Source: Serpentinimonas raichei (lineage in GTDB: Bacteria > Pseudomonadota > Gammaproteobacteria > Burkholderiales > Burkholderiaceae_C). From it: a DNA stretch of 64,000 bases. The stretch spans positions 719,699 to 783,698 of the forward strand of contig NZ_AP014568.1 of assembly GCF_000828895.1 (NCBI RefSeq), in the 5' to 3' direction. The position numbers were made by a program, and so were the translations under genes. Shown in pieces: positions 4,812 to 56,640 of the stretch. The first letter of the stretch is position 1. Every line of letters starts with the position of its first letter. Below the pieces are notes generated by a model, which ran no database searches, was not told the DNA's origin, and saw only the letters and a list, made by a program, of their open reading frames with translations.

Positions 4812-4940
4812 CGCGCTGGCGCCTGATCGAACGGGCGTGCAAAGCTTGGTACTCGGGTTTACGCGTAGTTGTCACATTTTCATGTGCGCGCCGTTCCATA
4901 ATCGAACGATATGATTTTCAGGGAATCGAAGCGCAGACAC

Positions 4941-7016: not shown

Positions 7017-7018
7017 GC

Positions 7019-8977: not shown

Positions 8978-9100
8978 AATGGTATTTACCTATTCGGGGC
9001 AAGCATACCACCGGCTGGGCGGACCCTTGTGTCTTGGGTGCTGCGTCTATCCGTTGCGCGTGCTGTAATTGGACTTGATAGATCTTCACGCTTTGCTTCT

Positions 9101-10150: not shown

Positions 10151-10188
10151 GCCATGAGCAGCGCCACCTACCCCGACGTCTCCTTTTT

Positions 10189-11751: not shown

Positions 11752-11763
11752 GGGGCCTCCTCG

Positions 11764-11812
11764 ATTTTTGTAGCTGCGGGCGCTTGACGGATGAGCGTTT
11801 GCGGCTATTTTT
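11764..11812. repeat. Hairpin-forming intergenic repeat of the type common in Comamonadaceae
   Basis: Nearly the whole gap between the GlpD-like and kinase genes is a nested inverted repeat. Outer arms are TAGCTGC (11771-11777) and GCGGCTA (11801-11807). Inner arms are CGCT (11781-11784) and AGCG (11794-11797). The hairpin is followed on the plus strand by seven T. I recall similar hairpin elements recurring between genes in Comamonadaceae. It looks like a dispersed repeat rather than a terminator of the flanking minus-strand genes, because the T run is on the plus strand. A partial match (TAGCTGCGGGC) recurs at 15041-15051. Confidence 0.55.
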
Positions 11813-15006: not shown

Positions 15007-15071
15007 GACTGGATACTCCTGAATGGTTTTCAGGCTACTATAGCTGCGGGCTTCCGATTTGCCATTCCGAA
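15007..15071. promoter_or_regulatory. Divergent promoter region between AGPS-like operon and araC-type gene
   Basis: This 65-bp gap must carry both start regions. For the minus-strand operon a -10-like TATAGT (complement of 15036-15041) lies 17 bp from a weak -35-like ATGGCA (complement of 15059-15064). A perfect inverted repeat CCTGAA-N5-TTCAGG spans 15018-15034, overlapping the expected transcription start. It is a reasonable operator candidate for the adjacent AraC-type protein or another repressor. Assignments are by eye and weak. Confidence 0.4.
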
Positions 15072-16154: not shown

Positions 16155-16286
16155 CCCGACCCGGCGGTACCAACATCTGCTCGGTGTGGGGGTAATCGGT
16201 GCAAGGTGCAAATTTCAGGGGTGCGTCATAGAATCAAGGGTTACCCCACATGGCAGCCGTCAATCCCCCAAGGCACCACCCCCCCC

Positions 16287-18743
16287 ATGACCGCCTACGT
16301 TGACGTCTCCTTTTTCCCGCGCCCGGCCAAGCCGCTGCCCAGTTTCAAACCCTACTGGGCCAAGCGCTTGGGCGTTGCGCCCTTTTTGCCCACCAGCCGC
16401 GCCGAGATGGAGCGCCTGGGCTGGGACAGTTGCGACGTGGTGCTGGTCACCGGCGACGCCTATGTCGATCACCCCAGCTTTGGCATGGCGGTGATCGGGC
16501 GCGTGCTGGAGGCGCAGGGCTTTCGCGTGGGCATCATCGCCCAGCCCGATTGGCACAGCGCCGAGCCCTTCAAGCTGCTGGGGCGGCCCAATCTGTTCTG
16601 GGGCGTGACCTCGGGCAATATGGATTCGATGATCAACCGCTACACGGCCGATCGCAAAATCCGCTCCGACGACGCCTACACCCCTGGCGACGTGGGCGGC
16701 AAGCGCCCGGACCGGGCCGCCATCGTTTACAGCCAGCGCTGCCGCGAAGCCTACAAGGATGTGCCGATCGTGCTCGGCGGCATCGAAGGCTCGCTGCGCC
16801 GCATCGCCCACTACGACTACTGGAGCGACCAGGTGCGGCGCTCGGTCGTGGTCGATGCCAAGTGCGACCTGCTGCTGTATGGCAACGCCGAGCGCGCCAT
16901 CGTCGAGATCGCGCACCGGCTGGCGCGGCGCGAGCCGGTGCAGCAGATCACCGACGTGCGCGGCACCGCCTTCGTGCGCCGCAGCAGCGCGCCGGACTGG
17001 ATCGAGCTCGATTCGACCGAAGTCGATCGCCCCGGCCGCGTGGAAGCGCACTTGAGCCCCTACCTGAGCACCAGCGAGCAGGCGCAGGCGCGCGGGGCGA
17101 GCTGTTCGAAAGAAGAAACATCCGTTCAGGCTGAGCCTGTCGAAGCCCTTGCGAGCCCTTCGATCCTTCGACAAGCTCAGGATAGGCCAAGCTCAGGGCG
17201 AACGGTGCAGGTGCAGGTCGAAGCTCCTGCCCCCGTTCGGGCTGAGCCTGTCGAAGCCCTAGCGAGCCCTTCGATCCTTCGACAAGCTCAGGACGGGCCA
17301 AGCTCAGGGCGAACGGTAAATTGGGAGGTCAAACCCATCACCCTCCACCCCCCGCTGGCCCAGCGCACCAAGGCCGCCGCACCGGCACGCGAGCGCACCG
17401 TGATCCGCCTGCCCAGCTACGAGCAGGTGCGCGCCGACCCGGTGCTGTACGCCCACGCCAGCCGCGTGCTGCACCTGGAAACCAACCCCGGCAACGCGCG
17501 CGCGCTGGTGCAGGCGCACGGCAGCGGCGCCACGGCGCGCGAGGTCTGGATCAACCCGCCGCCCATCCCCTTGAGCAGCGCCGAAATGGACTGGGTGTTC
17601 GACCTGCCCTATGCGCGCAGCCCGCACCCGAGCTACGCCGACGAACACGGCCGCCACGACGGGACTACCAAAATCCCGGCCTGGGAGATGATCCGCTTCA
17701 GCGTCAACATCATGCGCGGCTGCTTTGGCGGTTGCAGCTTTTGCTCCATCACCGAGCACGAAGGCCGCATCATCCAGAGCCGCTCCGAAGACTCGATCGT
17801 GCGCGAAGTCGAGCAAATCCGCGACCAGGTGGCGGGCTTTACCGGCGTCATCAGCGACCTCGGCGGCCCCACCGCCAATATGTACCGTCTCGGCTGCAAG
17901 AGCCCCGAGATCGAGGCCGCCTGCCGCAAACCGAGCTGCGTCTATCCCGGCATCTGCTCCAACCTGCACACCGATCACCGGCCGCTGATCTCGATCTACC
18001 GGCGCACGCGCGCGCTGCCGGGCATCAAAAAGGTGCTGATCGGCTCCGGCCTGCGCTACGACCTGGCGGTGCAAAGCCCGGAGTACGTGCAGGAGCTGGT
18101 GCAGCACCACGTGGGCGGCTACCTCAAGATCGCGCCCGAGCACACCGAGGGCGGGCCGCTGTCGAAAATGATGAAGCCCGGCATCGGCAGCTACGAGCGC
18201 TTCAAAAAGCTGTTCGAGCAGTACAGCGCCGAGGCCGGCAAGAAGCAGTACCTGATCCCGTACTTCATCGCCGCGCATCCCGGCACCAGCGACGCCGACA
18301 TGATGCAGCTCGCGCTCTGGCTCAAGCGCAACGGCTTTCGCGCCGACCAGGTGCAGACCTTCTACCCCAGCCCCATGGCCAGCGCCACCGCCATGTACCA
18401 CAGCGGGCTCAACCCGCTCAAGGGCATCCACCGTGACGCCCGCGCCGAGCGCGTGGATGTCGTCAAGGGCGACCGGCGCCGGCGCCTGCACAAAGCCTTT
18501 TTGCGCTACCACGACCCGGCCAACTGGCCGCTGCTGCGCGAGGCGCTCAAAGCCATGGGCCGCGCCGACCTGATCGGCAACGGGCGCCAGCACCTGATTC
18601 CCAGCTTCCAACCCAGCAGCAGCCCCAGCGGCTACCAGAGCCCACGGCGCAGCAACAGCACGCCGGTGCGCCCCGGCACGCTGCTGACGCAGCACACCGG
18701 GCTGCCGCCACGGGCCGGGGTGGCGGGCAAGAAAAAACGCTGA
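16287..18743 (+). CDS. YgiQ-family radical SAM protein with in-frame repeat insertion
   Basis: An 818-residue YgiQ/UPF0313-type radical SAM protein, larger than E. coli YgiQ (about 740). The N-terminal cobalamin-binding-like region runs from [10 protein letters not shown] through [13 protein letters not shown]. The radical SAM cluster is [17 protein letters not shown] (CX3CX2C), followed by [15 protein letters not shown] and the C-terminal extension [16 protein letters not shown] region. Function in the cell is unknown. ATG 16287 ([12 protein letters not shown]) is preferred over 16206. Between the two domains, residues about 279-344, two copies of an 84-bp palindromic repeat are translated in the same frame ([18 protein letters not shown] in both) without breaking the ORF. 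Confidence 0.88.
17122..17205 (+). repeat. 84-bp palindromic dispersed repeat, copy 1, inside the ygiQ-like gene
   Basis: Begins CCGTTCAGGCTGAGC and ends GCTCAGGGCGAACGG, so the ends are near-complementary. Inside, CTGAGCCTGTCGAAG (17131-17145) pairs with CTTCGACAAGCTCAG (17166-17180) with one mismatch. The core TTCGACA-GCTCAG is a motif I associate with highly abundant dispersed repeats in Comamonadaceae and relatives. The element is read as [20 protein letters not shown] in the host protein. Confidence 0.85.
17233..17316 (+). repeat. 84-bp palindromic dispersed repeat, copy 2, inside the ygiQ-like gene
   Basis: Second copy, offset exactly 111 bp (37 codons) from the first, so both are read in the same frame. 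It differs from copy 1 at only a handful of positions, for example GGACGGGCC against GGATAGGCC. A 27-bp spacer separates the copies. The tandem arrangement suggests duplication or repeated insertion at the same permissive linker. Confidence 0.85.
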
Positions 18744-38916: not shown

Positions 38917-38924
38917 GGCCGACA

Positions 38925-40079
38925 GTGAAACGAAGCAAGCTGCTCGTCCCGGTGCTGGTCGCCGGTCTGGTGCTGGTGCTCGCGGCGGGTGCCGCGTACT
39001 GGCGCTTCGGGCACGCCGTGGCGGTGCCGATGGTCGAGGCTGTGCAGGGTAGCGTGGCCCAGCGCGTCGTCGGCCCCGGCACCCTGCAGGCGCGTGTGCC
39101 TGTGACGCTGGCCGCGCGCATCACGTCCACGGTGCAGCAGGTCAATGTGGACATCGGCGACAGCGTCCAGCGCGGTCAAGCGCTCGTGCTGCTCGACGAC
39201 CGCGACCTGGTTGCCAAGCGCAGCGTGGTCGGCGGCCAGCAGGTGGCCTTGTCGCGCAACGTCGATGCGGCCAAGGCGGGCATCGCCAAGGCGCAGGCCG
39301 AGCTCGATCTGGCGCGCAGCAGGCAGCAGCGCGACGTCGAGTTGCTGCGCACCGGTTTCGTTGCGCAGGCCGCGCTCGACGGCTCCAACGCCGCGTTGCG
39401 CGCCGCGCAGGCCAACCTGGACAGCGCGCGCGCCACCCACGCCGCGCGCGCGGCCGACGCGAGCGCGCTGCAGCACGAAGCCCGCCATGCCGACACCGTG
39501 CTGTCGTTCACCCGCATCGCGGCGCCGATGGATGGCGTCATCATCGCGCGCCAGGCCGAGGTCGGTACCACGGTCGTTCCGGGCAGCACGCTGCTGCGCA
39601 TGGTCGATCCGGCCACGCTGTGGGTGGCGATGAGCGTGGACGAGTCGGTGCTCGCCCGCGTGCAGGTCGGCCAGGCGGCGAGCATCCGCCTGCGCAGCGG
39701 CGAGTTGCTGCCGGGCAAGGTCGCGCGCATCACCCACCAGTCCGACGCCGCCACGCGCGAGCTCGAAGTCAACATCGCTTTCGACAAGCCGCCGGCACGC
39801 TTCGCGATCGACCAGGAGGCCCAGGTCTCGGTTGACACCGGGGCGGTGGCGGGCATCGCGGTGCCGCTGACGGCGCTGACGCGCGACCGCGAGGGCCGCC
39901 TAGGTGTGCTGGTCGTGGTGGACGCGCGCGCCGAGTTCCGGCCCGTGCAGACCGGTGCCGCCGATGGGCACCAGGCCCTGGTCACGCAGGGGCTGGCGGC
40001 CGGCGAGCGCGTCGTCGCCGCGGCCGAAGGCGTGAGGGCCGGCATGCGCGTGCGCGCGCAAACCGCGGCCGGCCGCTGA
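38925..40079 (+). CDS. HlyD/RND-type periplasmic adaptor (membrane fusion protein) of an ABC exporter
   Basis: A 384-residue adaptor linking the inner-membrane ABC unit to the periplasm. One N-terminal membrane anchor (about residues 6-25) is followed by a lipoyl/biotinyl-like half (ITSTVQQVNVDIGDSVQRGQ), an Ala-rich coiled-coil hairpin (residues about 90-180), the second lipoyl half FTRIAAPMDGVIIARQAEVG and beta-barrel domains. GTG 38925 has GAGG six bases upstream, formed partly by the dxr stop; a TTG at 38913 overlaps dxr. It is the first gene of the inserted module and would be co-transcribed with dxr. Codon choice (nearly all AAG, GAG, CAG) differs from dxr. Confidence 0.87.
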   Translation: MKRSKLLVPVLVAGLVLVLAAGAAYWRFGHAVAVPMVEAVQGSVAQRVVGPGTLQARVPVTLAARITSTVQQVNVDIGDSVQRGQALVLLDDRDLVAKRSVVGGQQVALSRNVDAAKAGIAKAQAELDLARSRQQRDVELLRTGFVAQAALDGSNAALRAAQANLDSARATHAARAADASALQHEARHADTVLSFTRIAAPMDGVIIARQAEVGTTVVPGSTLLRMVDPATLWVAMSVDESVLARVQVGQAASIRLRSGELLPGKVARITHQSDAATRELEVNIAFDKPPARFAIDQEAQVSVDTGAVAGIAVPLTALTRDREGRLGVLVVVDARAEFRPVQTGAADGHQALVTQGLAAGERVVAAAEGVRAGMRVRAQTAAGR

Positions 40080-40113
40080 GCACCGGGCCCGGGCGCGACG
40101 CAGGAAGCAATCG

Positions 40114-41307
40114 ATGGACCTCGCCCTCAAGGACATCCGCCGCCACATTGGCAAGTTCATCGCCACCATCTTCGGCGTGGCGATGCTGCTGGCCATCGTG
40201 CTGGTGATGAACGGCATCTACCGGGGCAACATCGCCGACGGCGTCTGGCTGATCGACCACACGGCCGCCGAGCTGTGGGTCGTCGAGCGCGGGCGCGGCG
40301 GGCCCTTCAACGAGAGCTCGCGCATTCCGCTGGACAGCCGCCAGAGCGTGGCCGCGACGCCGGGCGTGGCCAAGGCCAGCCCGCTGGTGATCTACTCGGC
40401 GCAGCGCGTGATCGGGGCCCGGGAGCAGCAGTTCACGGTCATCGGCTACGACGTGTTCGGCGGCTTGGGCGGGCCCACGCGCATCGCGCGCGGGCGCGGC
40501 ATCGAGGCGCCGCACTACGAGGTGGTGGTTGACAGCAAGCTCGGCCTCGACCTCGGCGACAAGCTGACCCTAGGCAGCCACGACTACACGGTGGTCGGTA
40601 TCACACAGGGCGCGGTCGATTCCGGCGGCAACCCGCTGCTGTACCTGTCGCTGCCCGATGCGCAGCAGGTGCAGTTCCAGCAGGACAACCGGGCCCTGGT
40701 TGCGGCGCGCGCGGCCAACCTGCAACGCCTGGAACGCGCGGGCTACTCGTCCGAGCAGGCCGTGCGCCTGTTGCCGCTGCTCTCGACCTCGGGCGACACC
40801 ATCAACGCGGTGCTGGTGCAGCTCGCACCCGGTGCCGACGGTGCGCGGGTCGCGCAGCACATGCGCGACTGGCTGTACTTCAACGTTTACACCACCGAAG
40901 AGCAGCGCAATCTGATGCTCGAAGGCCGGCTCGCCCGCATGTCGGCGGTGCTTGGGCTGTTTCGCACGCTGCTGCTGATCGTCTCGATCGTCATCATCGC
41001 GCTCATCATCTACGTGCTGACGATCGAGAAGATCCGCTCCATCGCCACGCTCAAGCTGATCGGCGCGTCCAACTGGGTCATCGTGCGCCTGATCATGGAG
41101 CAGTCGATGGCGCTGACGCTGGCCAGCTTCGCTGTCGCTTACGGCCTGCGCGAGCTGATCGCGCCCGGCTTCCCGCGCAGCCTGGCTTTCCTGGCCCAGG
41201 ATACCGCCATCACCTTCGGCGTGATGCTGGTCGGCGGCGTGCTGGCCAGCGCGATGGCGATCTGGCATGCGCTGCGCACGCCGCCGCAGATGGCGCTCGG
41301 GGGCTGA
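40114..41307 (+). CDS. FtsX/MacB-type ABC transporter permease
   Basis: A 397-residue permease with one N-terminal helix (FIATIFGVAMLLAIVLVMNG), a large periplasmic MacB-like domain (residues about 45-260) and three C-terminal helices, the last block being AITFGVMLVGGVLASAMAIW. The LIVSIVIIALIIYVLTIEKIRSIATLKLIGA region is the typical FtsX coupling segment. AGGAAG precedes ATG. It lies 34 bp after the adaptor and 2 bp before the ATPase, giving a DevBCA-like adaptor-permease-ATPase set. Substrate unknown. Confidence 0.88.
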   Translation: MDLALKDIRRHIGKFIATIFGVAMLLAIVLVMNGIYRGNIADGVWLIDHTAAELWVVERGRGGPFNESSRIPLDSRQSVAATPGVAKASPLVIYSAQRVIGAREQQFTVIGYDVFGGLGGPTRIARGRGIEAPHYEVVVDSKLGLDLGDKLTLGSHDYTVVGITQGAVDSGGNPLLYLSLPDAQQVQFQQDNRALVAARAANLQRLERAGYSSEQAVRLLPLLSTSGDTINAVLVQLAPGADGARVAQHMRDWLYFNVYTTEEQRNLMLEGRLARMSAVLGLFRTLLLIVSIVIIALIIYVLTIEKIRSIATLKLIGASNWVIVRLIMEQSMALTLASFAVAYGLRELIAPGFPRSLAFLAQDTAITFGVMLVGGVLASAMAIWHALRTPPQMALGG

Positions 41308-41309
41308 CG

Positions 41310-42026
41310 GTGGTCGATGCCAAGAGATCGGTCGTCGAGGTCGAGGGCGTGTCCAAGACCTTCGGCAGTGGCGAGACAGCCGTGCAGGCGCTCAAGCCCT
41401 GTTCGTTCGCGGTCCAGGAGGGCGAGCTCGCGGCGCTGCTGGGCCCCAGCGGCTCGGGCAAGAGCACGCTGCTGCTGGCGATCAGCCTGATCCTGGAGCC
41501 GACCACCGGGCGCATCGTGGTGGGCGGGCAGGAGGTCTACAACAACGGCTGGACGGGGGTCGATGACCGTGCCTTCCGCCGCCGCCACATCGGCTTCATC
41601 TTCCAGCAGCACAACCTGATCCCGTTCCTGACCGCGATCGAAAACGTCGCCCTGATGATGCAGTTGAACGGCATCGGCCGGCGCGAGGCGACGCGGCGTG
41701 CGAAGGAACTGCTCGGCTACCTCGAGATCGCGCACCGCGCCGATGCGCTGCCGGCCAACCTCTCGGGCGGCGAGCAGCAGCGCGTGGCGATCGGGCGCGC
41801 GCTGGCCAACGAGCCGCCGCTGATCCTGGCCGACGAGCCCACTGCGGCACTCGACACCGAGCGCGGTACCAAGGTGATGGCGCTGCTGAAGAAGATCGCG
41901 CGCGAGCGCCGCTCGGCGGTGATCACCGTCACCCACGACCACCGCATGATCGAAGGCTTCGACAGCGTCTATCACCTCGACGACGGCGTGCTGGCGCGCA
42001 TGCCGCAGGCGGCGGCCGGGCACTGA
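41310..42026 (+). CDS. ABC transporter ATP-binding protein (LolD/MacB-like)
   Basis: A 238-residue ATPase energising the adjacent permease. Walker A GPSGSGKST at residues 45-53, Q loop FIFQQHNLIPFL, signature LSGGEQQRVAIGRAL from residue 151, Walker B LILADEPTAALD and the H-loop TVTHDHRM. It starts with GTG 41310 just after the permease stop, with the run GGGGGC upstream. It ends 4 bp before the stop of the convergent Crp/Fnr gene. Confidence 0.92.
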   Translation: MVDAKRSVVEVEGVSKTFGSGETAVQALKPCSFAVQEGELAALLGPSGSGKSTLLLAISLILEPTTGRIVVGGQEVYNNGWTGVDDRAFRRRHIGFIFQQHNLIPFLTAIENVALMMQLNGIGRREATRRAKELLGYLEIAHRADALPANLSGGEQQRVAIGRALANEPPLILADEPTAALDTERGTKVMALLKKIARERRSAVITVTHDHRMIEGFDSVYHLDDGVLARMPQAAAGH

Positions 42027-42030
42027 GTGC

Positions 42031-42648
42031 CTATTGCTGGGCAAACTCGAGCAGCGCCTTCGGCTCCACCACCGTCACCCGCCCACGCTCGAGCCGCACC
42101 CAGCCCCTTTGCTCGAAGTTGCCCAGCAGACGGCTGATGAACACGCGCACGCTGCCCAACTCATCAGCCAGGTTCTGGTGTGTGGCATTGACCACCGGGC
42201 CGCGCTGGATCAGCAGCCGCGCCAGCCGCGCGTCGAGCTTGCGGAATGCGACTTCCTCGACCAGCTCCATCACCTCGGCCAGCCGGGCGCCGTACATATC
42301 GAACACGAAGCGGCAAAACGGTGGGTGCCGCAGCATGAATACCTGGAACAAATCGGGCGGGATGCGCAGCAGCGTCACGTCGCTTTCGGCGACGCCTCGG
42401 GCCGCATAGTCGGTTTCGCCCAGCAGGCAGCCGCCCGACAGGATGCAGGCCTCGCCGGGGCTGACGCGGTAGAGCACGATTTCGCGGCCACTGCGCGAGG
42501 TCTTGGTCACGCGCACGCTGCCTTCGAGCACCAGCGGGAAGCCTTCGCACGGCATGTCCTGCTCGAACACCACGCTGCCCGCAGGGGCCCGGCGCAGCGG
42601 TGCCGCGGCCAGCAACTCGGCCAAGTGTGCCGCCGGCAGCTCGGCCAA
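42031..42648 (-). CDS. Crp/Fnr-family transcriptional regulator with paired cysteines
   Basis: About 205 residues. The cyclic-nucleotide-binding-like beta barrel is followed by the long dimer helix and a winged helix-turn-helix (THQNLADELGSVRVFISRLL). Cysteines at 34, 68, 74 and 112 include CILSGGC on the barrel; the first FNR-type iron-sulfur N-terminal cluster is absent. The start is a problem. Homology appears to begin upstream (LLERFPVLAEL), yet only TTG 42648 or rarer CTG codons are available between the preceding TAA and that point, so the N-terminus may start at CTG. It lies 48 bp downstream of the HMA gene on the same strand. Confidence 0.82.
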   Translation of the reverse strand: MAELPAAHLAELLAAAPLRRAPAGSVVFEQDMPCEGFPLVLEGSVRVTKTSRSGREIVLYRVSPGEACILSGGCLLGETDYAARGVAESDVTLLRIPPDLFQVFMLRHPPFCRFVFDMYGARLAEVMELVEEVAFRKLDARLARLLIQRGPVVNATHQNLADELGSVRVFISRLLGNFEQRGWVRLERGRVTVVEPKALLEFAQQ

Positions 42649-42696
42649 TACCGGAAAGCGCTCGAGCAGCAGAGCGCGCGGGAGGGAGTCGATGGC

Positions 42697-42984
42697 TTAG
42701 GCGCTCATCTTGCCGATGGCACAACTTACGTACGACTTGGCCACTGCGGCGGCTGAGCGCAGGCCCTCGACCGAACCCTTCTCGGGGTAGCCCAAGCGCG
42801 CGAGCTTGGCAGCAAACTCGCCGCGCAGTTCCGCCGCAGCCCCGATCTCGACGCTGTCGGTGGCAGGGTCCACGACAACCTGCGTCACCCGTGGATCGGC
42901 GCGCAGCGTTTTCTCGATGGTGCTGGCGCACCCGCCGCACTTGAGGTTTTCGACCTCGAAACGGATGCTGTTGTGGCTGTTCAT
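42697..42984 (-). CDS. Heavy-metal-associated (HMA) domain protein, CopZ-like
   Basis: A 95-residue cytoplasmic protein. The ferredoxin-like HMA fold has the metal site NLKCGGCASTIEKTL with Cys16 and Cys19, then VTQVVVDPATDSVEIG. The C-terminal third (VAKSYVSCAIGKMSA) holds one further cysteine and lies outside the domain. ATG 42984 is backed by AAGGAG six bases upstream; an in-frame start at 43062 would add 26 residues of non-homologous sequence running through a hairpin. It probably binds Cu(I), Hg(II) or a similar soft metal. It is divergent from the secreted DUF302 gene and upstream of the Crp/Fnr gene. Confidence 0.85.
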   Translation of the reverse strand: MNSHNSIRFEVENLKCGGCASTIEKTLRADPRVTQVVVDPATDSVEIGAAAELRGEFAAKLARLGYPEKGSVEGLRSAAAVAKSYVSCAIGKMSA

Positions 42985-43013
42985 GAGCGACTCCTTGAAC
43001 GAAAAGAGGATTA

Positions 43014-43027
43014 AATTGACGACAATT
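43014..43027. promoter_or_regulatory. Palindrome AATTG-N4-CAATT in the HMA/DUF302 divergent region
   Basis: AATTG (43014-43018) and CAATT (43023-43027) are perfect arms in an AT-rich patch, 30 bp upstream of the HMA start. It could be the site of the local Crp/Fnr regulator. The TTG and CAA arms are closer together than in the canonical FNR box (TTGAT-N4-ATCAA). Confidence 0.35.
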
Positions 43028-43044
43028 ATGCATGATTGGTTTGC

Positions 43045-43084
43045 TTGGCTGCGGTCTGCCACTTGGGTGGCAGACCGCAGCCAA
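43045..43084. repeat. Perfect 18-bp inverted repeat (hairpin) in the HMA/DUF302 divergent region
   Basis: TTGGCTGCGGTCTGCCAC (43045-43062) is the exact reverse complement of 43067-43084, separated by TTGG. No T run follows on either strand, so it is not an ordinary terminator. It lies in the leader of whichever gene is transcribed across it, or between the two divergent promoters. Confidence 0.8.
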
Positions 43085-43152
43085 CCCGGCGCCTATCATT
43101 CACCCCGAAGCACCATCAACACGCTTTACCCAAGCCACCAAAGGAAACGTCG

Positions 43153-43701
43153 ATGAACTCCCTGACCGCGCCCCGTTCGATCCGCAAGCCGCTGCTGCAC
43201 AGCGCCGCTTGGCTGCTGCTGGCCATCACCCTGTGGTTGTTCGCCGCGATGGCGAGCGCCCAAGCCCAGACCCAAGCGCCGGCCAGGGCGGCGATGCCTG
43301 CGCTGTTCTTGGAAGACACCAGTCCCAAGGCCTTGGTGCCCACGGTCGAGGCGTTCCGCGAGGCGGTCAGAGCCGCCGGCTGGAGCATACTCGACGTGAC
43401 CAACATGGCCGGCATCCTGTCCGAGCGCGGCTTCACGCTGCACCCGGTGCTGGTGTTCGACGCCTGCAGCGCCAGATACAGCGCTGACCTGCTGTCTAGG
43501 GACGAGACCCGATTCGTCGCGTCGATGATTCCCTGCCGCGTGGCGATCTACCAGACCAGCACCGGCAAGGTCGTGATTTCGCGCATGAACTCGGTCGCCA
43601 TGGCGGGCATGGTCGGCGGCCATGCCGGCACGGTCATCAGGAAGTCGGGCGAAGAGATGGAGCAGATCATCCAGGCCACGCTGAAGAAGCTCGGCTCGTA
43701 A
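43153..43701 (+). CDS. Secreted DUF302-domain protein
   Basis: A 182-residue exported protein. An N-terminal signal peptide (basic RSIRK, hydrophobic WLLLAITLWLFAAMASA) likely ends near AQA at residues 35-37. The mature part matches DUF302: FREAVRAAGWSIL, HPVLVFDAC, IPCRVAIYQTSTGKVVISRMN. Cys105 and Cys128 could form a disulfide or bind metal. AGGA lies seven bases before ATG 43153. Function of DUF302 is not established; it is found near redox, sulfur and metal genes. It is divergent from the HMA and Crp/Fnr genes and is the last gene of the island. Confidence 0.82.
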   Translation: MNSLTAPRSIRKPLLHSAAWLLLAITLWLFAAMASAQAQTQAPARAAMPALFLEDTSPKALVPTVEAFREAVRAAGWSILDVTNMAGILSERGFTLHPVLVFDACSARYSADLLSRDETRFVASMIPCRVAIYQTSTGKVVISRMNSVAMAGMVGGHAGTVIRKSGEEMEQIIQATLKKLGS

Positions 43702-44053
43702 ACAACCGCGTCGCGCGGCCGGTGCTAGGTGTGCAGGCGTGAAGCGCAGCCACGCGCATAGCCTATCGAACGGGCGCAGCCGCTGCCCCGCAGGCCATCG
43801 AGACGCTGCGCGCCGCGCTGGGCGCGCGCCTTGATCGGGCGGGTGTGCGCGCCGTCTTTGCGGTTCAGGCGTTGTTCCCGCTTGCATGCAGTGGCTTGTC
43901 GGCCTTGGATCGGCTTGCATCGCGTTTCAGGGCCAACGTTTTAGGAGCAAAATACAGGAGGATTTATACCAGTGCCCTCGAGCCTGCTCCCTACACCCCA
44001 GCCATGCACCCAGCCTCTGCCTTAACCCAAGCGCGCCCGCCCAGCGCCCCCCC
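43702..44053. other. 352-bp gap at the right end of the island, with a strong Shine-Dalgarno and mini-ORF
   Basis: I see no full gene here. An open plus-strand frame with no homology runs through much of it. Near the right end AGGAGG (43956-43961) precedes GTG 43972 by ten bases and could open a 17-codon ORF ending TAA at 44025, 28 bp before rseP. A weak -10-like CAAAAT (43948-43953) with TTTCAG 17 bp upstream could be a promoter restoring expression of rseP and the genes after it, which the island separated from dxr. Confidence 0.4.
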
Positions 44054-48298: not shown

Positions 48299-49339
48299 AT
48301 GCTCCGGCTCAGCGACATCCACGCCGCCTTGGGCGGCGTTTTGCATGGCGACGGCGCGTGCCCGATCTCCGGCTTGGCCTCGCTCGAGAGCGCCGGGCCC
48401 GATCGGCTCGCCTTTGTGGCGCAGACGCGCCACGCCGCCGCCATTGAAACCACGCAGGCGGCGGCGCTGATCGTGCCGCCCGAGCTGGTGCCACGGGCCA
48501 GCGCCCGCGGGCCCTGCATCGAGACGCCGGAGCCCCATGCCTACTTTGCCCGCCTGACGCAGTGGTGGCGCGCGCGCCTGCAAGCGGCGCAGCACGAGGC
48601 CGCCGATCCAGCCGAGCCCGCCATCCACCCCAGCGCCTGGGTGCACCCGAGTGCCGAACTCGGGGCCGGGGTGCGCTTGGGGGCCTTTGCCGTGGTCGAG
48701 GCCGGGGTGCAGATCGGCGCCAACAGCGAGATCGGGGCCCATTGCGTGATCGGGGCGCGGGTGCGCCTGGGCGCGCAGGCGCGGCTGGCGGCGCAGGTGG
48801 TGATCGGGCACGACTGCACGCTCGGGGCGCGCTGCATCATCCACAGCGGGGCGGTGATTGGGGCCGACGGCTTTGGCTTTGCGCCGCAGCAGGGGCAGTG
48901 GCTCAAGATCGAGCAGTTGGGCGCGGTGCGCATCGGCGACGACGTGGAAATCGGTGCCAACACCTGCATCGACCGCGGCACCCTCGACGACACCGTGCTC
49001 GAAGACGGAGTCAAGCTCGACAACCTGATCCAGATCGGCCACAACGTGCGCATCGGCGCGCACAGCGCCTTGGCCGGTTGCGTCGGGGTGGCGGGCAGCG
49101 CCCACATCGGCGCCCACTGCACCTTGGGCGGCGGGGCCGGGGTGCTCGGGCATTTGCGCTTGGCCGACCACGTGCACATCACGGCCGCCACGCTGGTGAC
49201 GCGCTCGATCCTCAAGCCGGGCCAGTACAGCGGCGCGTTCCCGATCGACGACAATGTGAACTGGGAAAAAAACGCCGCCACCCTGCGCCAGTTGTACGCG
49301 CTGCGGCAACGCCTCAGAGCCTTAGAAAAAAAATCCTGA
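48299..49339 (+). CDS. lpxD: UDP-3-O-(3-hydroxyacyl)glucosamine N-acyltransferase
   Basis: Third step of lipid A synthesis: adds the 2-N-linked hydroxyacyl chain. The 346-residue protein has an N-terminal uridine-binding domain (residues about 1-100). A left-handed beta-helix of hexapeptide repeats follows ([33 protein letters not shown]). The catalytic histidine lies in [12 protein letters not shown]. It ends in a short C-terminal helix. The stop overlaps fabZ by one base (TGATG). If the gnn genes act as predicted, its substrate would be a 2,3-diamino sugar nucleotide. Confidence 0.97.
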
Positions 49340-49797
49340 TGGACATCCACCAAATTCTGAAAAAACTGCCGCACCGCTACCCTTTTTTGCTGGTAGACCG
49401 GGTGCTGGAAATCGAAAAAGGCCAGTTCATTCGCGCGCTCAAAAACGTGAGCATGAACGAGCCCCAGTTCACCGGCCACTTTCCGCACCGGCCGGTGTTT
49501 CCGGGGGTGCTGATGCTCGAAGCTTTGGCGCAGACGGCGGCCCTACTCACCTTTGAGACCTTGGGGTTGGAGCTGGACGAAAACTCGGTCTATTACTTTG
49601 CCGGTGTCGATGGCGCGCGCTTCAAGCGCCCGGTGGAGCCGGGTGACCAGTTGCTCATGCACGTGACGCTGGTGCGCTCCAAGGCCGGCATCTTCAAATT
49701 CAAGGGCGTGGCCCGGGTCGGCGACGAGGTGGCCTGCGAGGCCGAACTGATGTGCACCATGCGCCGCATTCAGCAAAGCGAAGGCAGCACCGCATGA
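49339..49797 (+). CDS. fabZ: 3-hydroxyacyl-ACP dehydratase FabZ
   Basis: Dehydrates 3-hydroxyacyl-ACP in fatty-acid elongation and competes with LpxA/LpxD for hydroxyacyl-ACP. Hot-dog fold of 152 residues. [13 protein letters not shown], catalytic His47 in [12 protein letters not shown] and Glu61 in MLEALAQ are in place. It overlaps lpxD by one base and lpxA by four (ATGA), so fatty-acid and lipid A enzymes are coupled in one transcript. Confidence 0.98.
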
Positions 49798-50630
49798 GTT
49801 TGATCCACCCCACCGCGCTGGTGGACCCGGCGGCGCAACTGCATCCCTCGGTGGCGGTCGGGGCCTACAGCCTGATCGGCCCGCATGTGCAGATCGCCGA
49901 GGGCAGCACGGTTGGCAGCCACTGCGTGATCGAGGGCCACACCCGCATCGGCGCGCACAACGCCATCCACAGCTACGCCGCGCTGGGCGGGGCGCCGCAG
50001 GACAAAAAATACGCCGGCGAGCCAACCCGGCTCGAAATCGGTGACCGCAACGTGATCCGCGAGTTTTGCACCTTGCACCGGGGCACCGCCAACGGCCGCG
50101 GTGTGACCCGCGTCGGGCACGACAACATGCTGATGGCCTATGTGCACCTTGCGCACGACTGCCAAGTTGGCAGCCACACCGTGTTTGCCAACAACGCCCA
50201 ACTGGCCGGCCACGTGCAGGTGGGGGATTGGGTGATTTTGGGCGGATTTACCGTGGTGCGCCAGTTTTTGCGCCTGGGTGCGCACAGCTTCACCGCCATG
50301 TGCGCGCTGCTGTTTGCCGATTTGCCGCCGTTCGTGGTCTGCCAGGGGCAGCCGGCGGTGGCGCGCAACGTCAACGCCGAAGGGCTGCGCCGGCGCGGCT
50401 TTGGCCCGGCGCGCATCGCCGCCGTGCGCGCCATGTACAAAGCGTTGTACCGCGACAACCTCACGCTGCAAGCGGCGCAGCCGCGCATTGCCGCCTTGGC
50501 CAGCGCAGGCTCGGAGGCCGCGCCCGATGTGGCGCTGATGCTCGAATTCTTGGCCGGGGCCGGCAAGCCCGGCATCGTGCGCCGGCGCGCGCGCAGCGAT
50601 GCCGCCGATGGCGAAGGAGCGACTGCATGA
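49794..50630 (+). CDS. lpxA: UDP-N-acetylglucosamine (or GlcNAc3N) O/N-acyltransferase LpxA
   Basis: First step of lipid A synthesis; trimeric beta-helix of hexapeptide repeats, 278 residues. The catalytic His is His121 in VHLAHDC (E. coli His125), and His140 is kept. E. coli His160 is Arg156 here. The hydrocarbon-ruler residue (E. coli Gly173) is Met169, in GAHSFTAMC. In P. aeruginosa the same Met sets a C10 acyl preference, so 3-hydroxydecanoyl transfer is predicted. The next two genes are gnnA- and gnnB-like, so the acceptor may be UDP-GlcNAc3N, giving an amide in place of an ester. Confidence 0.96.
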
Positions 50631-50679
50631 AAACAATCTCTACGCCCGCCTGGCTCGCCGCCACACCAAGGAGCGAGTC

Positions 50680-51624
50680 ATGAAGCCCCTGCGCTGTGCC
50701 GTGATCGGCGTCGGCTACCTGGGCAAGTTCCACGCCCAGAAGTACGCCAAGCTGCCCGGCTGTGAATTGGTGGCCGTGGTCGACAGCCGGCTGGAGGTGG
50801 CGCAAGCCGTGGCCAAGCCGCTGGGCTGCCGCGCCGTGGCCGACTACCGCGAGCTGCTGGGCCAGGTCGATGCCGTGAGCGTGGTGGTGCCGACGCAGGC
50901 GCACCACGCCGTGACGCTGGACTTTCTGCGCGCCGGGGCCCACGTGTTGGTGGAAAAACCCATCGCCGTCACGCTGGAGCAGGCCGACGAGATGATCGAG
51001 CAAGCCGAGCGCAGCGGCCTGGTGCTGGCGGTCGGGCACCTGGAGCGCTTCAACCCGGTGGCGCTGGCGCTGGAGCCCTTGCTGGACCAACCGCGCTTCA
51101 TCGAGAGCACCCGGCTGGCCCCGTTCAAGCCGCGCGCCACCGATGTGAGCGTGCTGCTGGATTTGATGATCCACGACGTCGATCTGATTTTGTCCCTGGT
51201 GGATAGCGAGATCGTCAGCGTGGACAGCAGCGGCGCGCGCGTGCTCACCAACGACATCGACATTGCCAATGCGCGCATCCGCTTTGCCAACGGCTGCGTG
51301 GCCAATGTGACGGCCAGCCGCGTCAGCAACAAGAGCGAGCGCAAGATGCGCGTGTTCCAGCACCGCGCCTGCCATTCGCTCGATTTTGGCACCCGGCACC
51401 TGATCAGCTACCGCGCCACCGATGCCGACCCGCTGGCCGCCCCCGAAGACGCAATCGAGCGCCAGATGCAGATGTTTGGCGAAGCCGACGCACTGCTGAG
51501 CGAAATCACCGATTTCGTGGCCAGCGTGCGCGAAGGGCGTGCGCCCAAGGTCAGCGGTCGCGCCGGGCGGCGTGCGCTGGCGGCGGTGCAGCGCATCAGC
51601 GCCGCGACCGAGCTCATTTCCTGA
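50680..51624 (+). CDS. gnnA: GnnA-like UDP-GlcNAc 3-dehydrogenase (Gfo/Idh/MocA family)
   Basis: A 314-residue Gfo/Idh/MocA oxidoreductase. The Rossmann motif AVIGVGYLGKFHAQ is at residues 7-20, the EKP motif at 92-94 (VEKPIAV), GHLERFNP follows, and the C-terminal alpha/beta domain has LDLMIHDVDLILSLV. ATG 50680 has GGAG about six bases upstream; an earlier in-frame start at 50599 lies inside lpxA. In Acidithiobacillus ferrooxidans, GnnA oxidises C3 of UDP-GlcNAc and GnnB aminates it, and their genes lie between lpxA and lpxB as here. Position and gene pair support this role; family membership alone would not. Confidence 0.75.
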   Translation: MKPLRCAVIGVGYLGKFHAQKYAKLPGCELVAVVDSRLEVAQAVAKPLGCRAVADYRELLGQVDAVSVVVPTQAHHAVTLDFLRAGAHVLVEKPIAVTLEQADEMIEQAERSGLVLAVGHLERFNPVALALEPLLDQPRFIESTRLAPFKPRATDVSVLLDLMIHDVDLILSLVDSEIVSVDSSGARVLTNDIDIANARIRFANGCVANVTASRVSNKSERKMRVFQHRACHSLDFGTRHLISYRATDADPLAAPEDAIERQMQMFGEADALLSEITDFVASVREGRAPKVSGRAGRRALAAVQRISAATELIS

Positions 51625-51649
51625 ATTTTTGCTTCCCGAAAGACTTGCC

Positions 51650-52747
51650 ATGCGCATCCCGATGGTCGATCTGGCCACCCAGTACCGCGAACTCAAACCC
51701 CAGCTCGAACCGGCGCTGCTGGCCGCGCTGGAGGCGACCCAGTTCATCCTTGGCCCCAACGTGCAGGCCTTTGAGGCCGAAGCGGCGGCTTACTTGGGCG
51801 TCAAGCACGCCATCAGTTGCGCCAACGGCACCGACGCGCTGCACCTGGCGCTGCGCGCGCTCGGGCTGGGGCCGGGCGACGAGGTCATCACCACGCCGTT
51901 TACTTTCATCGCCACCGCCGAGGCCATAGCCTACGTGGGCGCCAAAACGGTGTTCGTCGATATCGACCCGCGCAGCTTCAACCTCGATGTGGAGCAGGTG
52001 GCGCGCGCCATCGGGCCGCGCACCAAGGCGCTGCTGCCGGTGCACCTGTTCGGCCAACCGGCCAATATGGCGCCGCTGCAGGCGCTGGCGCAGCAGCACG
52101 GCCTGCACCTGATCGAAGACTGCGCCCAGTCCTTCGGCGCCCGGGTGGCCGGGCGCATGACCGGCTCCATCGGCGATGTGTCGGCGTTCAGCTTTTTCCC
52201 GAGCAAAAACCTGGGCTGCTACGGCGACGGCGGCATGGTCACCACGCAGTCCGACGCGCTGGCCGAGACGCTGCGCATGCTGCGCAACCACGGCAGCAAG
52301 GTGCGCTACTACCACGACATCATCGGCTACAACAGCCGTCTCGATGAGCTGCAGGCGGTGGTGCTGCGCGCCAAGCTGCCGCGCATCGACCACTACAACC
52401 AGCAGCGGCGCCGGGTGGCGCAGCGCTACCAGGCCGGCTTGGCCGGTTTGCCGCTGCAAACCCCGTTCGAGGACGGCATCGGGCAGCACGTCTATCACCA
52501 ATACACCCTGCTGTGCGAGCGCCGCGACGCGCTGCAGCAGGCCCTGAGCGCGGCGCAAATCGCCAGCGCGATCTACTACCCGGTGCCGCTGCACCAGCAA
52601 AAGGTGTTTGCGGCCGAGGCGGCGGGGCAGTCGTTCCCGGTCACCGAATCGGTGGCGCGTTGCTGCCTCTCGCTGCCAATCTACCCCGAGCTGAGCGATG
52701 CGGCGATCGACGAAGTCTGCGCCGTGATTCGGCAGGCGCTGGCCTGA
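51650..52747 (+). CDS. gnnB: GnnB-like UDP-3-keto-GlcNAc aminotransferase (DegT/DnrJ/EryC1 family)
   Basis: A 365-residue PLP-dependent sugar aminotransferase. N-terminus MRIPMVDLATQYRELKPQLE, glycine-rich substrate loop CANGTDALHLALRALGLGPGD, PLP-contact region EDCAQSFGA and the Schiff-base lysine Lys186 in FSFFPSKNLGCYGDGG. ATG 51650 lies 25 bp after gnnA. Predicted to transfer an amino group to C3 of the keto sugar nucleotide, making UDP-GlcNAc3N for LpxA. Other DegT proteins act in capsule or O-antigen synthesis, but no such cluster is here. Confidence 0.75.
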   Translation: MRIPMVDLATQYRELKPQLEPALLAALEATQFILGPNVQAFEAEAAAYLGVKHAISCANGTDALHLALRALGLGPGDEVITTPFTFIATAEAIAYVGAKTVFVDIDPRSFNLDVEQVARAIGPRTKALLPVHLFGQPANMAPLQALAQQHGLHLIEDCAQSFGARVAGRMTGSIGDVSAFSFFPSKNLGCYGDGGMVTTQSDALAETLRMLRNHGSKVRYYHDIIGYNSRLDELQAVVLRAKLPRIDHYNQQRRRVAQRYQAGLAGLPLQTPFEDGIGQHVYHQYTLLCERRDALQQALSAAQIASAIYYPVPLHQQKVFAAEAAGQSFPVTESVARCCLSLPIYPELSDAAIDEVCAVIRQALA

Positions 52748-52764
52748 GCCGGCCCTTGGCTGCC

Positions 52765-53961
52765 GTGCCGACCGCGCCCGCGCCCACCCACCCAGCCAGT
52801 CTTGCGCCTGCGCCGCAGCCGGGCCCGGGCTTGCGCGTGGCCATGGTGGCGGCGGAGCGCTCCGGCGACCAGCTTGCCGCCTTGCTGCTGCACGGCATGC
52901 GCCAGCGCTGGAGCGGCTTGCAAGCCAGCGGCATCGGCGGGCCGCTGATGCAGGCGCAGGGCTTTGCGGCGCGCTGGAGCTGCGACGAACTCACCGTGCG
53001 CGGGCTGGTCGAGGGCGTGTGGGCGTATCGGCGCATCAGCGCCATCCGGCGCCAGTTGCTGGCCGATCTGCTGCACCAGCGCCCCGACGTGTACCTCGGC
53101 GTCGATGCCTCGGATTTCAACCTGCCGCTGGAGCGCCAGCTCAATCGCGCCGGCATCCCGGCGATCCAACTGGTCTGCCCCTCGATCTGGGCCTGGCGGC
53201 CCGGGCGCGTGCACGCCATCCGGCGCAGCGTGCGCCACGTGCTGTGCCTGTTCCCTTTTGAGCCCGTTTTGCTGGAGCGCCACGGCATCGAGGGCACCTT
53301 CGTGGGGCACCCAGTGGCCGACCTGATCGCGCTCGAACCCGACCAAGCCGCCGCCCGCCAGCGCCTCGGGCTGGCGCCAGACGACACCGTGGTGGCGCTG
53401 CTGCCGGGCAGCCGGGTGGCCGAGATCGCCGCGCTGGCGCTGCCGTTCTTGCACGCCGCGCGCCTGATGGCGCAGCAGCGCCCGCAGTTGCGCTTCGTGC
53501 TGCCCACGCACGAGGGCCTGCGCCCGGCCTTGCAGCAGGCGCTGCTTCAGACTGGCATGGAGGAACGGGTGCAACTGGTGCTGGGGCAAGCGCACACGGT
53601 GCAGGCGGCTTGCGACGTGGCGCTGGTGGCCAGCGGCACCGCCACGCTCGAAACCGCGCTGCACAAGCGCCCCATGGTGATCGCCTACCGCATGCAGTGG
53701 CTTTCGTATTGGGTCGCCAACCAGCAGCGGCGCACGCCCTGGATCGGGCTGCCCAATATTTTGTGCCAGCAAAGCCTGGTGCCCGAGCTGCTGCAAGACC
53801 AGGTGCAGCCCGAGGCGCTGGCGCGCGCCACGCTGGCCTGGCTCGACGACCCGGCAGCGGTGGCGCAGCTGCGCCAGCGCTTTACCGAGATGCACCTGCA
53901 ACTGCGGCAAGACATGCCCGCCCGAGCCAGCCATGCGATTGCGCAAATCCTTGCCGCGTGA
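52765..53961 (+). CDS. lpxB: Lipid A disaccharide synthase
   Basis: GT19 glycosyltransferase that joins UDP-2,3-diacylglucosamine to lipid X. The N-terminal sugar-nucleotide motif reads [11 protein letters not shown] where E. coli has [57 protein letters not shown] and [19 protein letters not shown] follow. The start is uncertain: GTG 52765 (398 residues) or TTG 52756, both directly after the gnnB stop and neither with a clear ribosome binding site. The 3' end overlaps rnhB by 29 bp. In this operon its substrates may be GlcN3N-based. Confidence 0.95.
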
Positions 53962-54565
53962 GGCCTACACGCTGGGCTGGAATCCGCCCGGTCTGGTGGC
54001 CGGTGTCGATGAAGCCGGGCGCGGCCCGCTGGCCGGGCCGGTGCTGGCCGCCGCCGTGATGCTGGACCCGCGCAAACCCATCGCGGGCTTGCGCGACTCG
54101 AAAAAGCTTAGCCCGAAGCGGCGCGAGCACTTGCACGAGCAGATTCTGGAGCACGCCCTGTGCTGCTCGGTCGCGCTGGCCAGCGTGGAAGAAATCGAGC
54201 GCCTCAACATCTTGCAGGCCACCTTGCTGGCGATGCAGCGCGCCGTGGCGGGTTTGCGGCTGCGCCCGACGCAGGTGCTGGTCGATGGCAACCGGCTGCC
54301 CGCGCTCGACCTGCCCGCGCAAGCCGTGGTGCAGGGCGACGACCGGGTGGCCGCCATCGCCGCCGCCTCCATCGTGGCCAAGGTGCAACGCGACCGCCTG
54401 TGCGACGCTTGGCACGCCCAGTACCCCGATTACGGCTTCGATCGGCACAAGGGCTACGGCACCGCCGCACACCTCGAGGCGCTGCAACGCTGCGGCCCCA
54501 CGCCCCTGCACCGGCGCGGCTTTGCCCCGGTGGCGGCCTTGCTGGCGCCAGCCAGTCCGCCATGA
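53933..54565 (+). CDS. rnhB: Ribonuclease HII
   Basis: Removes RNA from RNA-DNA hybrids and single ribonucleotides from DNA. The 210-residue protein contains the active-site Asp-Glu in [14 protein letters not shown], the [12 protein letters not shown] block, LVDGN with the next Asp, and [12 protein letters not shown] with the fourth carboxylate. ATG 53933 overlaps lpxB by 29 bp; the stop overlaps the next gene by four bases (ATGA). It stands at the usual place at the end of the lpx operon. Confidence 0.96.
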
Positions 54566-55332
54566 GCACCGAAACCATCCGCTCGCGCGACAACGCGCTG
54601 GTCAAGCAACTGCGCCGCCTAGGCCAAGACGGGGCTGCCGGCCGCGAACTGGGTCTGGTCTGGCTCGAAGGCGAGCACCTGTGCCGCGCCTTGCTGGCAC
54701 GCGGCCACCTGCCCGCGCTGCTCCTGCGCGCCGAATCGGCCCCGCACTGGGACCATGCCTGGGCCTTGCCACCCAGCGTGCGCCGGGTGGCACTGGCCGA
54801 CAGCCTGCTGGCCAGTGTGAGCAGCCTGGGCTCCAGCGCGCCGGTGGGCTTTTTGTGGCCCTTGCCCGCCGCCGTGGCACCCGAGCCGGGGCGACCCACT
54901 GTGCTGCTGGACCGCTTACAAGACCCGGGCAACGTCGGCTCCATCCTGCGCAGCGCCGCCGCCTTCGGGTTTGAGCAGGTGCTGGCGCTCAAGGGCACGG
55001 CGGCGCTGTGGGCGCCCAAGGTGCTGCGCGCCGGCATGGGGGCGCACTTTGCGCTGCGCCTCGTTGAAGCGGCCACCTTGGCCGATCTGCCGGCCTTGCA
55101 ACTGCCGCTGCTGGCCACCAGCTCGCACCAAGGGCAGTGGCTGCACCAGGCCGCGCTGCCCTGGCCTTGCGCCTGGCTGCTGGGCCACGAAGGGCAGGGC
55201 CTGAGCCCCGAGCTGCTGGCCGCTGCCAGCCAGCACCTGCGCATCGCCCAGCCCGGCGGCGAAGAGTCGCTCAACGTCGCCGCCGCCGCCGCCATCTGCT
55301 TGCATGCCAGTGCGGTGCAGCGGGGGGCTTGA
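54562..55332 (+). CDS. TrmH/SpoU-family RNA 2'-O-methyltransferase
   Basis: A 256-residue SPOUT methyltransferase. Motif 1 is [22 protein letters not shown], motif 2 [10 protein letters not shown] and motif 3 [17 protein letters not shown], the deep trefoil knot that binds SAM. The N-terminal substrate-binding domain has [14 protein letters not shown] and VWLEGEHL. The rRNA or tRNA target cannot be told from sequence. It is coupled to rnhB by an ATGA overlap. GGGGCT-TG-AGCCCC (55324-55337) spans its stop codon. Confidence 0.87.
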
Positions 55333-55341
55333 GCCCCACGC

Positions 55342-55347
55342 TATAAT
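55342..55347 (+). promoter_or_regulatory. -10 element of the probable carAB promoter
   Basis: A consensus TATAAT lies 127 bp before the carA start. No good -35 stands 16-18 bp upstream, where the sequence is a G run. The remaining leader (about 55354-55468) is GC rich and has no ORF that I can support; it may hold pyrimidine-responsive control. Confidence 0.4.
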
Positions 55348-55468
55348 TCCAAGGTTTACCCGAACCCCACGCACCCGGCGGCTCAAGGCTGCTCCATCCT
55401 CCGCCCTCGGCGCCTCAAGCGCGTGCTGGCGCGGCGGCTAAAGGGTGCGGATTGAACTGGAGAGTCCT

Positions 55469-56640
55469 GTGTTTCCCGTCCCCGCCCCAGCCCTGCTCGC
55501 GCTCGCCGACGGCACGGTCTTTCGCGGCACCGCCATCGGTGCCACTGGACTAACCGTTGGCGAGGTGGTGTTCAACACCGCCCTCACCGGCTACCAGGAA
55601 ATCCTCACCGACCCGAGCTACCGCCAGCAGCTCGTCACGCTCACCTATCCGCACATCGGCAACACCGGCGTCAACGCCGAAGACGTGGAGTCCGATGCCA
55701 TCCACGCCGCCGGCCTGATCATCAAAGACCTGCCGCTGCTGCACTCGAACTTTCGCGCCAGCGCCTCGCTCACGCAGTACCTGCAAGCGGCCGGCACGGT
55801 GGCGATTGCGGGCATCGACACCCGCGCCCTGACGCGCCGCCTGCGCCAGCACGGAGCGCAAAACGGCGCCATCCTCGCGCTGGCCGAGGGCCAGACCCTT
55901 TCGGACGCGCACGCGGCCCAGGCCCTGGCCGCCGCCCGCAGCGCGCCCAGCATGGCCGGGCAGGATCTGGCGCGGGTGGTGAGCACGGCGCAGCCCTACG
56001 AGTGGACGCAGACCGAATGGCAGCTCGCGCGCGCCGACGGCAGCCCCGGCTATGGCGAGCTGAGCGCGCCGCGCTTTCATGTGGTGGCCTACGACTTTGG
56101 CGTGAAGAAAAACATCCTGCGCATGCTGGCGCAACGCGGCTGCCGCGTGACCGTGGTGCCGGCCCAGACCCCGGCCGCCCAGGTGCTGGCGCTGCGCCCC
56201 GACGGCGTGTTTTTGTCCAACGGCCCCGGCGACCCGCAGCCTTGCGACTACGCCATCGCCGCCGCGCGCGAGCTCATCGACTCCGGCCTGCCCACTTTCG
56301 GCATCTGCCTCGGGCACCAGATCATGGCGCTGGCCAGCGGCGCACAAACCTACAAGATGCCGCACGGCCACCACGGCGCCAACCACCCGGTGCAGGAGCT
56401 GGCCAGTGGGCGCGTGGGCATCACCAGCCAGAACCACGGCTTTGCGGTGCAGCGCGAATCGCTGCCGGCGCATCTGCGCGTGACCCACATCAGCCTGTTC
56501 GACGGCACCGTGCAGGGGCTGGAGCGCACCGACCGCCCCGCCTTTTGCTTTCAGGGCCACCCCGAGGCCTCGCCCGGCCCGCACGACATCGCCAGCCTGT
56601 TTGACCGCTTCACGGCGCTGATGGCCCAGGAGAACACATA

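Follow-up and report, generated by a model that had tools for sequence, protein, structure and literature searches.

We have analysed a stretch of 64,000 nucleotides from the genome of Serpentinimonas raichei A1 (the window, corresponding to 719,699-783,698 of a single 2,574,013-bp contig; coordinates below are window positions unless stated otherwise, and the genes are on the + strand) in which two genes, gnnA and gnnB, are situated between lpxA and lpxB in the operon for lipid A synthesis. The operon order is rseP-bamA-skp-lpxD-fabZ-lpxA-gnnA-gnnB-lpxB-rnhB and then on to carAB; lpxD, fabZ, lpxA and lpxB were tested against profiles while the other operon gene names represent our reading of the open reading frames. 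Specifically, lpxA (49794..50630; NCBIfam PRK05289, 332 bits, cut-off 226) encodes an acyl-acyl carrier protein (ACP)--UDP-GlcNAc(3N) acyltransferase of 278 aa, where UDP-GlcNAc is UDP-N-acetylglucosamine and UDP-GlcNAc3N its 3-amino derivative. It is followed by gnnA (50680..51624), encoding a Gfo/Idh/MocA dehydrogenase of 314 aa predicted to oxidise UDP-GlcNAc at position 3 (PF01408, 111 bits for a longer reading of the gene), gnnB (51650..52747), encoding a DegT/DnrJ/EryC1 aminotransferase of 365 aa and putatively responsible for the C3 transamination (PF01041, 430 bits), and lpxB (52837..53961; NCBIfam TIGR00215, 290 bits, cut-off 190), encoding lipid-A-disaccharide synthase. The longer reading of gnnA, from ATG at 50599, is also open; the start at 50680 is favoured, as the Limnohabitans homologues match from its residue 1 or 4 and AAGGAG is present 6 nt upstream. 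The start of lpxB is uncertain, with family homology from near 52837, a longer open frame beginning upstream and the end at 53961. The genome has a single LpxA (E<=1e-40) and a single LpxC. An earlier reading made from the letters alone (the sequence-only reading) had placed a gnnA-gnnB pair between lpxA and lpxB, with an EKP motif at residues 92-94 of GnnA (314-aa reading) and a pyridoxal phosphate (PLP) lysine at position 186 of GnnB; the coordinates, the integrity of both genes and the two motifs all hold.

GnnA has the Gfo/Idh/MocA fold, with PF01408, PF22725 and PF02894 all above cut-off, and includes the EKP motif, which has a catalytic role in GnnA. Its best solved relative is 7bvj with 218 bits (the next solved chain scores 80 bits), which we take to be the GnnA of Acidithiobacillus ferrooxidans and which is said to correspond to a paper by Manissorn from 2020. 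In a quick tree GnnA and 7bvj are separated from two of the other Gfo/Idh proteins of the genome (L002 and L003; support 97), these two being the only contrast in a tree that included no O-antigen Gfo/Idh enzyme. GnnB belongs to the DegT/DnrJ/EryC1 family and its PLP lysine lies within FPSKN. It falls in one clade of lpx-linked GnnB proteins, apart from WbpE, DesV and 7b0d (support 93, quick tree), and a further four strong DegT proteins encoded in the same genome also lie outside this clade; the tree was composed of these lpx-linked GnnBs, WbpE, DesV, 7b0d and the genome's own DegT proteins, with no biochemically characterised GnnB among them. Grouping of the proteins with O-antigen enzymes had been named as the result that would speak against a lipid A function: GnnB does not group with WbpE, and for GnnA the part that stands is the grouping with 7bvj relative to the two own Gfo/Idh proteins, the tree having no O-antigen member to compare with. 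Moreover, in the three genomes nearest to 7bvj (57-68% identity; L297-L299) the order fabZ-lpxA-gnnA-gnnB is present in all three.

The order lpxA-gnnA-gnnB-lpxB was found in 23 of the 24 closest loci in a scan of named contigs (L005-L028, where the contig of L026 ends after gnnA and lpxB of L007 is truncated at the edge of its contig). The three Serpentinimonas genomes of the family sample (L085-L087) all have it as well, and the order is therefore not due to chance. Both genes are under purifying selection, with ratios of non-synonymous to synonymous substitution rates (dN/dS) of 0.142 for gnnA and 0.149 for gnnB relative to the third Serpentinimonas genome (G073). Among 299 genomes of the family gnnA (E<=1e-40) is present in seven: the three Serpentinimonas genomes, all three members of the genus g87 and one with a distant protein (46% identity) in another context. 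The three g87 loci are identical at the DNA level to the named Limnohabitans loci L008, L011 and L017, so that Limnohabitans also has gnnA in 3/3 genomes. The gnnA-less genera g89, g106, g39 and g137 are nearer to Serpentinimonas than Limnohabitans is, since their CarB identity to Serpentinimonas is 88-90% vs 86-87% for Limnohabitans. Beyond Limnohabitans the next loci of the scan (L029-L084, with titles that are mostly gammaproteobacterial and two that are Geobacter) have GnnA identities of 51-61% and, where GnnB was found, GnnB identities of 54-67%. In two of these, L060 and L082, a pair of distinct LpxA genes is found in the vicinity of gnnA-gnnB-lpxB, and at the position of E. coli Tyr63 one of them has Tyr while the other has His; perhaps each of the paired LpxAs serves one sugar nucleotide.

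When set against 14 Limnohabitans-type loci and 19 relatives lacking gnnA-gnnB (gnn-minus), the operon of the window proved to be a mosaic. The best identities (Limnohabitans-type/gnn-minus, %) for the upstream genes are 63.3/78.5 for BamA, 60.5/74.9 for Skp, 56.4/70.0 for LpxD and 79.9/85.4 for FabZ, while the preference is reversed for LpxA (75.0/69.0) and LpxB (70.8/58.6) and for RnhB the values are 68.7/71.2; the preference switches near the fabZ/lpxA and lpxB/rnhB borders. The gene lpxD (48299..49339) lies outside the block and does not go with Limnohabitans, and the left edge of the block is near the end of fabZ (49339..49797), where identity no longer favours Limnohabitans. Approximately unbiased (AU) tests were performed on 27 rows (three Serpentinimonas, eight of the 14 Limnohabitans-type loci and 16 of the 19 relatives). 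A grouping of Serpentinimonas with Limnohabitans is rejected by BamA (AU p 1e-8) and LpxD (p 0.0015), while LpxA (p 4e-8) and LpxB (p 6e-4) each reject placing Serpentinimonas with g89 and g106; in the LpxA and LpxB trees Serpentinimonas is joined to Limnohabitans with support 100. Because bamA and lpxD reject Limnohabitans while lpxA and lpxB join it, exchange of lpxA-gnnA-gnnB-lpxB as one block looks to be the simplest reading, and this would have been a single event, possibly with Serpentinimonas as the recipient. Replacement of the whole operon was ruled out, as bamA and lpxD do not follow Limnohabitans, and so was an LpxA derived from a gammaproteobacterial gnnAB donor, as LpxA groups with comamonad LpxAs (100/99). 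Since LpxA is of the comamonad type, an earlier insertion of gnnA-gnnB between the lpxA and lpxB genes of a comamonad must have taken place; the window LpxA is the sister of, and is not placed within, the sampled gnn-minus comamonad set (86/84).

The LpxA residues that form the sugar pocket were surveyed in 108 distinct rows comprising full-length matches only (partial matches and L212-L296 were left out). Arg is present at the E. coli His144 position (Arg156 in the window LpxA, codon 50259..50261) in all 24 distinct LpxAs of the Serpentinimonas/Limnohabitans clade that has gnnA-gnnB (gnn-plus) and in none of the other 84, of which 83 have His and one Thr. The gnn-minus relatives L098-L121 all have His before QF (motif GG(F/Y)...HQF, 24/24), where the gnn-plus rows read FTVVRQF. 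In E. coli His144 is proposed to bind the substrate (PMC6408518), and the equivalent His140 of P. aeruginosa LpxA makes a bond to the 6-OH of GlcNAc (PMC7072397; these and the other PMC sources are cited from excerpts of their text). The catalytic His121 and the pocket residue Asp70 are retained in the window LpxA, as in all 108 distinct rows. Another residue, His59 (codon 49968..49970; E. coli Tyr63 position), is shared by 36 of the 108, i.e. 23/24 of the clade and 13/84 of the others; among LpxAs encoded next to a gnnA, several have this His and others do not. The LpxA of Leptospira interrogans (3hsq), which is selective for UDP-GlcNAc3N, resembles the window LpxA in having His at the E. coli Tyr63 position. 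For its sugar pocket His130 and Gly138 are listed and no Arg (table in PMC7072397; that part of 3hsq was not aligned). The pocket changes that are confined to the clade suggest that LpxA has been re-tuned for a new substrate, and the Arg at the His144 position provides a precise hypothesis on its substrate choice; as a general GnnAB marker this Arg was dropped, given that it is confined to the Serpentinimonas/Limnohabitans clade.

Together these data suggest a pathway in which GnnA would oxidise the 3-OH of UDP-GlcNAc using nicotinamide adenine dinucleotide (NAD+) and GnnB would transaminate the 3-keto sugar, with glutamate as donor, to give UDP-GlcNAc3N. The single LpxA of the genome would then N-acylate the 3-amino group, and after the action of LpxC, LpxD, LpxH/I and LpxB the primary hydroxyacyl chains would be amide-linked also at positions 3 and 3', on a lipid A backbone consisting wholly or partly of 2,3-diamino-2,3-dideoxyglucose (GlcN3N). 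Synthesis of UDP-GlcNAc3N for lipid A, which the sequence-only reading had proposed, is thus supported at the sequence level by the gene pair, its position and the family placement, and a link to lipid A rather than to O-antigen is favoured because gnnA-gnnB and the flanking lpxA and lpxB have a common history. We consider it very probable that amide-linked lipid A is made by GnnA, GnnB and LpxA encoded in a co-adapted four-gene module, lpxA-gnnA-gnnB-lpxB, which is common to Serpentinimonas and Limnohabitans and which by homologous exchange would have replaced the native lpxA-lpxB pair in a Serpentinimonas ancestor. Such an exchange points to a way in which the lipid A backbone of a lineage could be converted in a single step, since the enzyme that has to accept the new sugar travels together with those making it.

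Some observations weigh against this explanation. Among the NCBIfam models GnnA matches NF040723 (archaeal UDP-GlcNAc 3-dehydrogenase) best, but with 207 bits, which is below the cut-off of 450 for this model. Furthermore, in 26/26 loci from other proteobacteria (L124-L149) a GnnA-like gene is found near lpxA/lpxB while gnnB is absent within the 1.5 kb flanks, and since GnnA-like genes thus occur in this position without gnnB, the position of GnnA alone is no proof. With respect to the exchange, the groups compared in the AU tests were chosen after the identities were known, and LpxD itself does not recover a group made up of Serpentinimonas, g89 and g106 only (p 0.148, group not rejected). 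His59 was rejected as a universal marker of GlcNAc3N-type LpxA: two of the three LpxAs nearest to 7bvj have Phe, and L198 has His with a gnnA that lacks gnnB in its flanks; in addition, the Geobacter-titled L057 and L061 have Tyr, and of two further loci with gnnA-gnnB-lpxB, L209 from the same class has Phe and L210 from the same phylum has Tyr.

As a sub-case of the favoured explanation, the lipid A might be mixed, LpxA also taking UDP-GlcNAc and giving rise to a mixture of glucosamine (GlcN) and GlcN3N or to a hybrid backbone, as in Capnocytophaga or Zunongwangia. Hybrid GlcN3N-GlcN backbones are natural (PMC9470727), one being that of Capnocytophaga canimorsus (PMC3342949), and no sequence marker of strict LpxA selectivity is established; the history that lpxA and lpxB share with gnnA-gnnB and the clade-only pocket changes, suggestive of re-tuning, argue in the other direction, and we see the mixed form as possible but the lesser expectation. 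The grouping of lpxA and lpxB with Limnohabitans could instead be due to convergence after separate entry of gnnAB into each lineage, with no block exchange. Both LpxA and LpxB handle the changed substrate, which makes parallel change conceivable, and long branches can attract, but the LpxA and LpxB signal extends along much of both proteins, beyond the pocket sites, and the GnnA and GnnB proteins of Serpentinimonas and Limnohabitans are likewise sisters in the trees; also, the synonymous divergence (dS) between the window and L008 is lower for the block (0.87-1.05) than for bamA and lpxD (1.22-1.23), though all these values are near saturation. Convergence therefore appears improbable to us. 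Finally, that gnnA-gnnB make UDP-GlcNAc3N, or its N-acetyl form, for an O-antigen or other glycan and lie in the lpx operon by accident is very hard to sustain: homologues do serve O-antigen sugars and GnnB has WbpE as a near relative among the solved structures (328 bits), but lpx genes adjoin the pair on both sides in an order that is kept among the closest loci, the pair shares its history with lpxA and lpxB, and GnnB is apart from WbpE in the tree.

The system in the window and the GnnA/GnnB of A. ferrooxidans, which reportedly were the subject of Sweet et al. in 2004, are alike in enzyme families, catalytic motifs and the order lpxA-gnnA-gnnB-lpxB. A. ferrooxidans is an acidophile, whereas S. 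raichei is an alkaliphile with a comamonad-type LpxA carrying Arg at the His144 position; relative to the three genomes nearest to 7bvj the window proteins show 43% (GnnA) and 54-57% (GnnB) identity. The Campylobacter jejuni pair is said to have been treated by van Mourik et al. in 2010. In the excerpts of PMC8036547 and PMC5644692 the A. ferrooxidans pair is cited, and the C. jejuni pair (PMC8036547) and the rhizobial pair (PMC5644692) are shown or proposed to give amide-linked lipid A chains. Limnohabitans has the same block, with 75-81% identity for GnnA, 79-83% for GnnB, 72-75% for LpxA and 66-71% for LpxB (14 loci), whereas the Limnohabitans upstream operon genes do not group with those of Serpentinimonas. 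The enzymes are of a known type, and the novelty lies in the organism that carries them, in the exchange of the block and in the altered LpxA. In the literature on Serpentinimonas (whose genomes Suzuki et al. reportedly treated in 2014), Limnohabitans, alkaliphile lipid A and gnnA/gnnB, with subscription journals mostly uncovered, we found no report of the present finding; among the Limnohabitans papers listed, none deals with the lipid A of this genus judging by title or opening lines of the abstract.

S. raichei A1 is a spring bacterium with an optimum at pH 11, and its describers state that for no other prokaryote has an optimum pH as high as that of Serpentinimonas been reported (PMC8513617, 2021). 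That amide bonds in lipid A, in place of ester bonds sensitive to alkali, would be of advantage in alkali is a conjecture which gains from this pH optimum. What keeps an outer membrane built from ester lipids stable at pH 11 is to our knowledge an open question and, if the lipid A is amide-linked, the present locus would offer a single-locus, testable part of the answer. Tentatively, and with more doubt than confidence, we picture a mobile module for lipid A conversion that is passed from genus to genus in one piece. It would displace the lpxA-lpxB pair of the recipient, bring along an LpxA re-tuned in its sugar pocket by the His144-to-Arg change and, in Serpentinimonas, amide-link the primary chains of the lipid facing the pH 11 water, thereby contributing to the record optimum pH. 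Two points count against an alkali advantage. Limnohabitans, a genus of freshwater and near-neutral habitats, carries the same block, so alkaliphily need not be why the block spread. The genome also has one LpxL-type late acyltransferase (scoring below the NCBIfam cut-offs), and because this enzyme remains, secondary ester chains are to be expected even with amide-linked primary chains. A second protein of the same Pfam family is assigned by NCBIfam as a lysophospholipid acyltransferase family protein, and the phospholipids remain esters.

The sequence-only reading had also expected, if its proposal is correct, greater stability to deacylases; neither PagL nor LpxR family members were found in any of the three Serpentinimonas genomes, which leaves this idea with no visible target, and deacylase resistance was dropped as a benefit. 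According to PMC8513617, the fatty acids of the three Serpentinimonas type strains, analysed by lipid extraction and saponification, include no detected C8 or C10 3-OH species, while some were present in two Hydrogenophaga species and Macromonas and none in Malikia. Such an analysis would miss amide-linked chains and would also leave lipopolysaccharide (LPS) behind. The non-detection agrees weakly with amide-linked chains, because LPS is left behind by lipid extraction and Malikia lacks these 3-OH fatty acids too. A PF13444 protein, of what is presumably the family of the ornithine-lipid N-acyltransferase OlsB, is present in all three Serpentinimonas genomes (G000:C1:261546-261848; G073 and G179) and might give rise to a further amide lipid.

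Within Serpentinimonas, S. raichei A1 and S. barnesii H1 (L005) have identical GnnA proteins, and a 6,370-bp stretch (49693..56062, no strand assigned) is base-for-base identical between the two while the flanking 1-kb bins show 92-97% identity; over 142,863 aligned positions sampled the mean identity of A1 and H1 is 93.65%. Identical stretches of at least 1 kb occur at two other places in the sample, A1 4188-18664 (with a single mismatch within it) and 126161-130236, the latter overlapping a DegT gene. The idea that the block swept recently between species of the genus was dropped on account of these two places, and we regard the identity as an oddity; assembly cross-contamination is a possible cause of the identical stretches. 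Just upstream of rseP there is a stretch of approximately 5 kb (window ~38921-44040) to which neither S. barnesii H1 nor G073 has a match longer than 300 bp. In both of these genomes the sequences flanking it are no more than 100 bp apart, so that the stretch is present only in A1 of the three.

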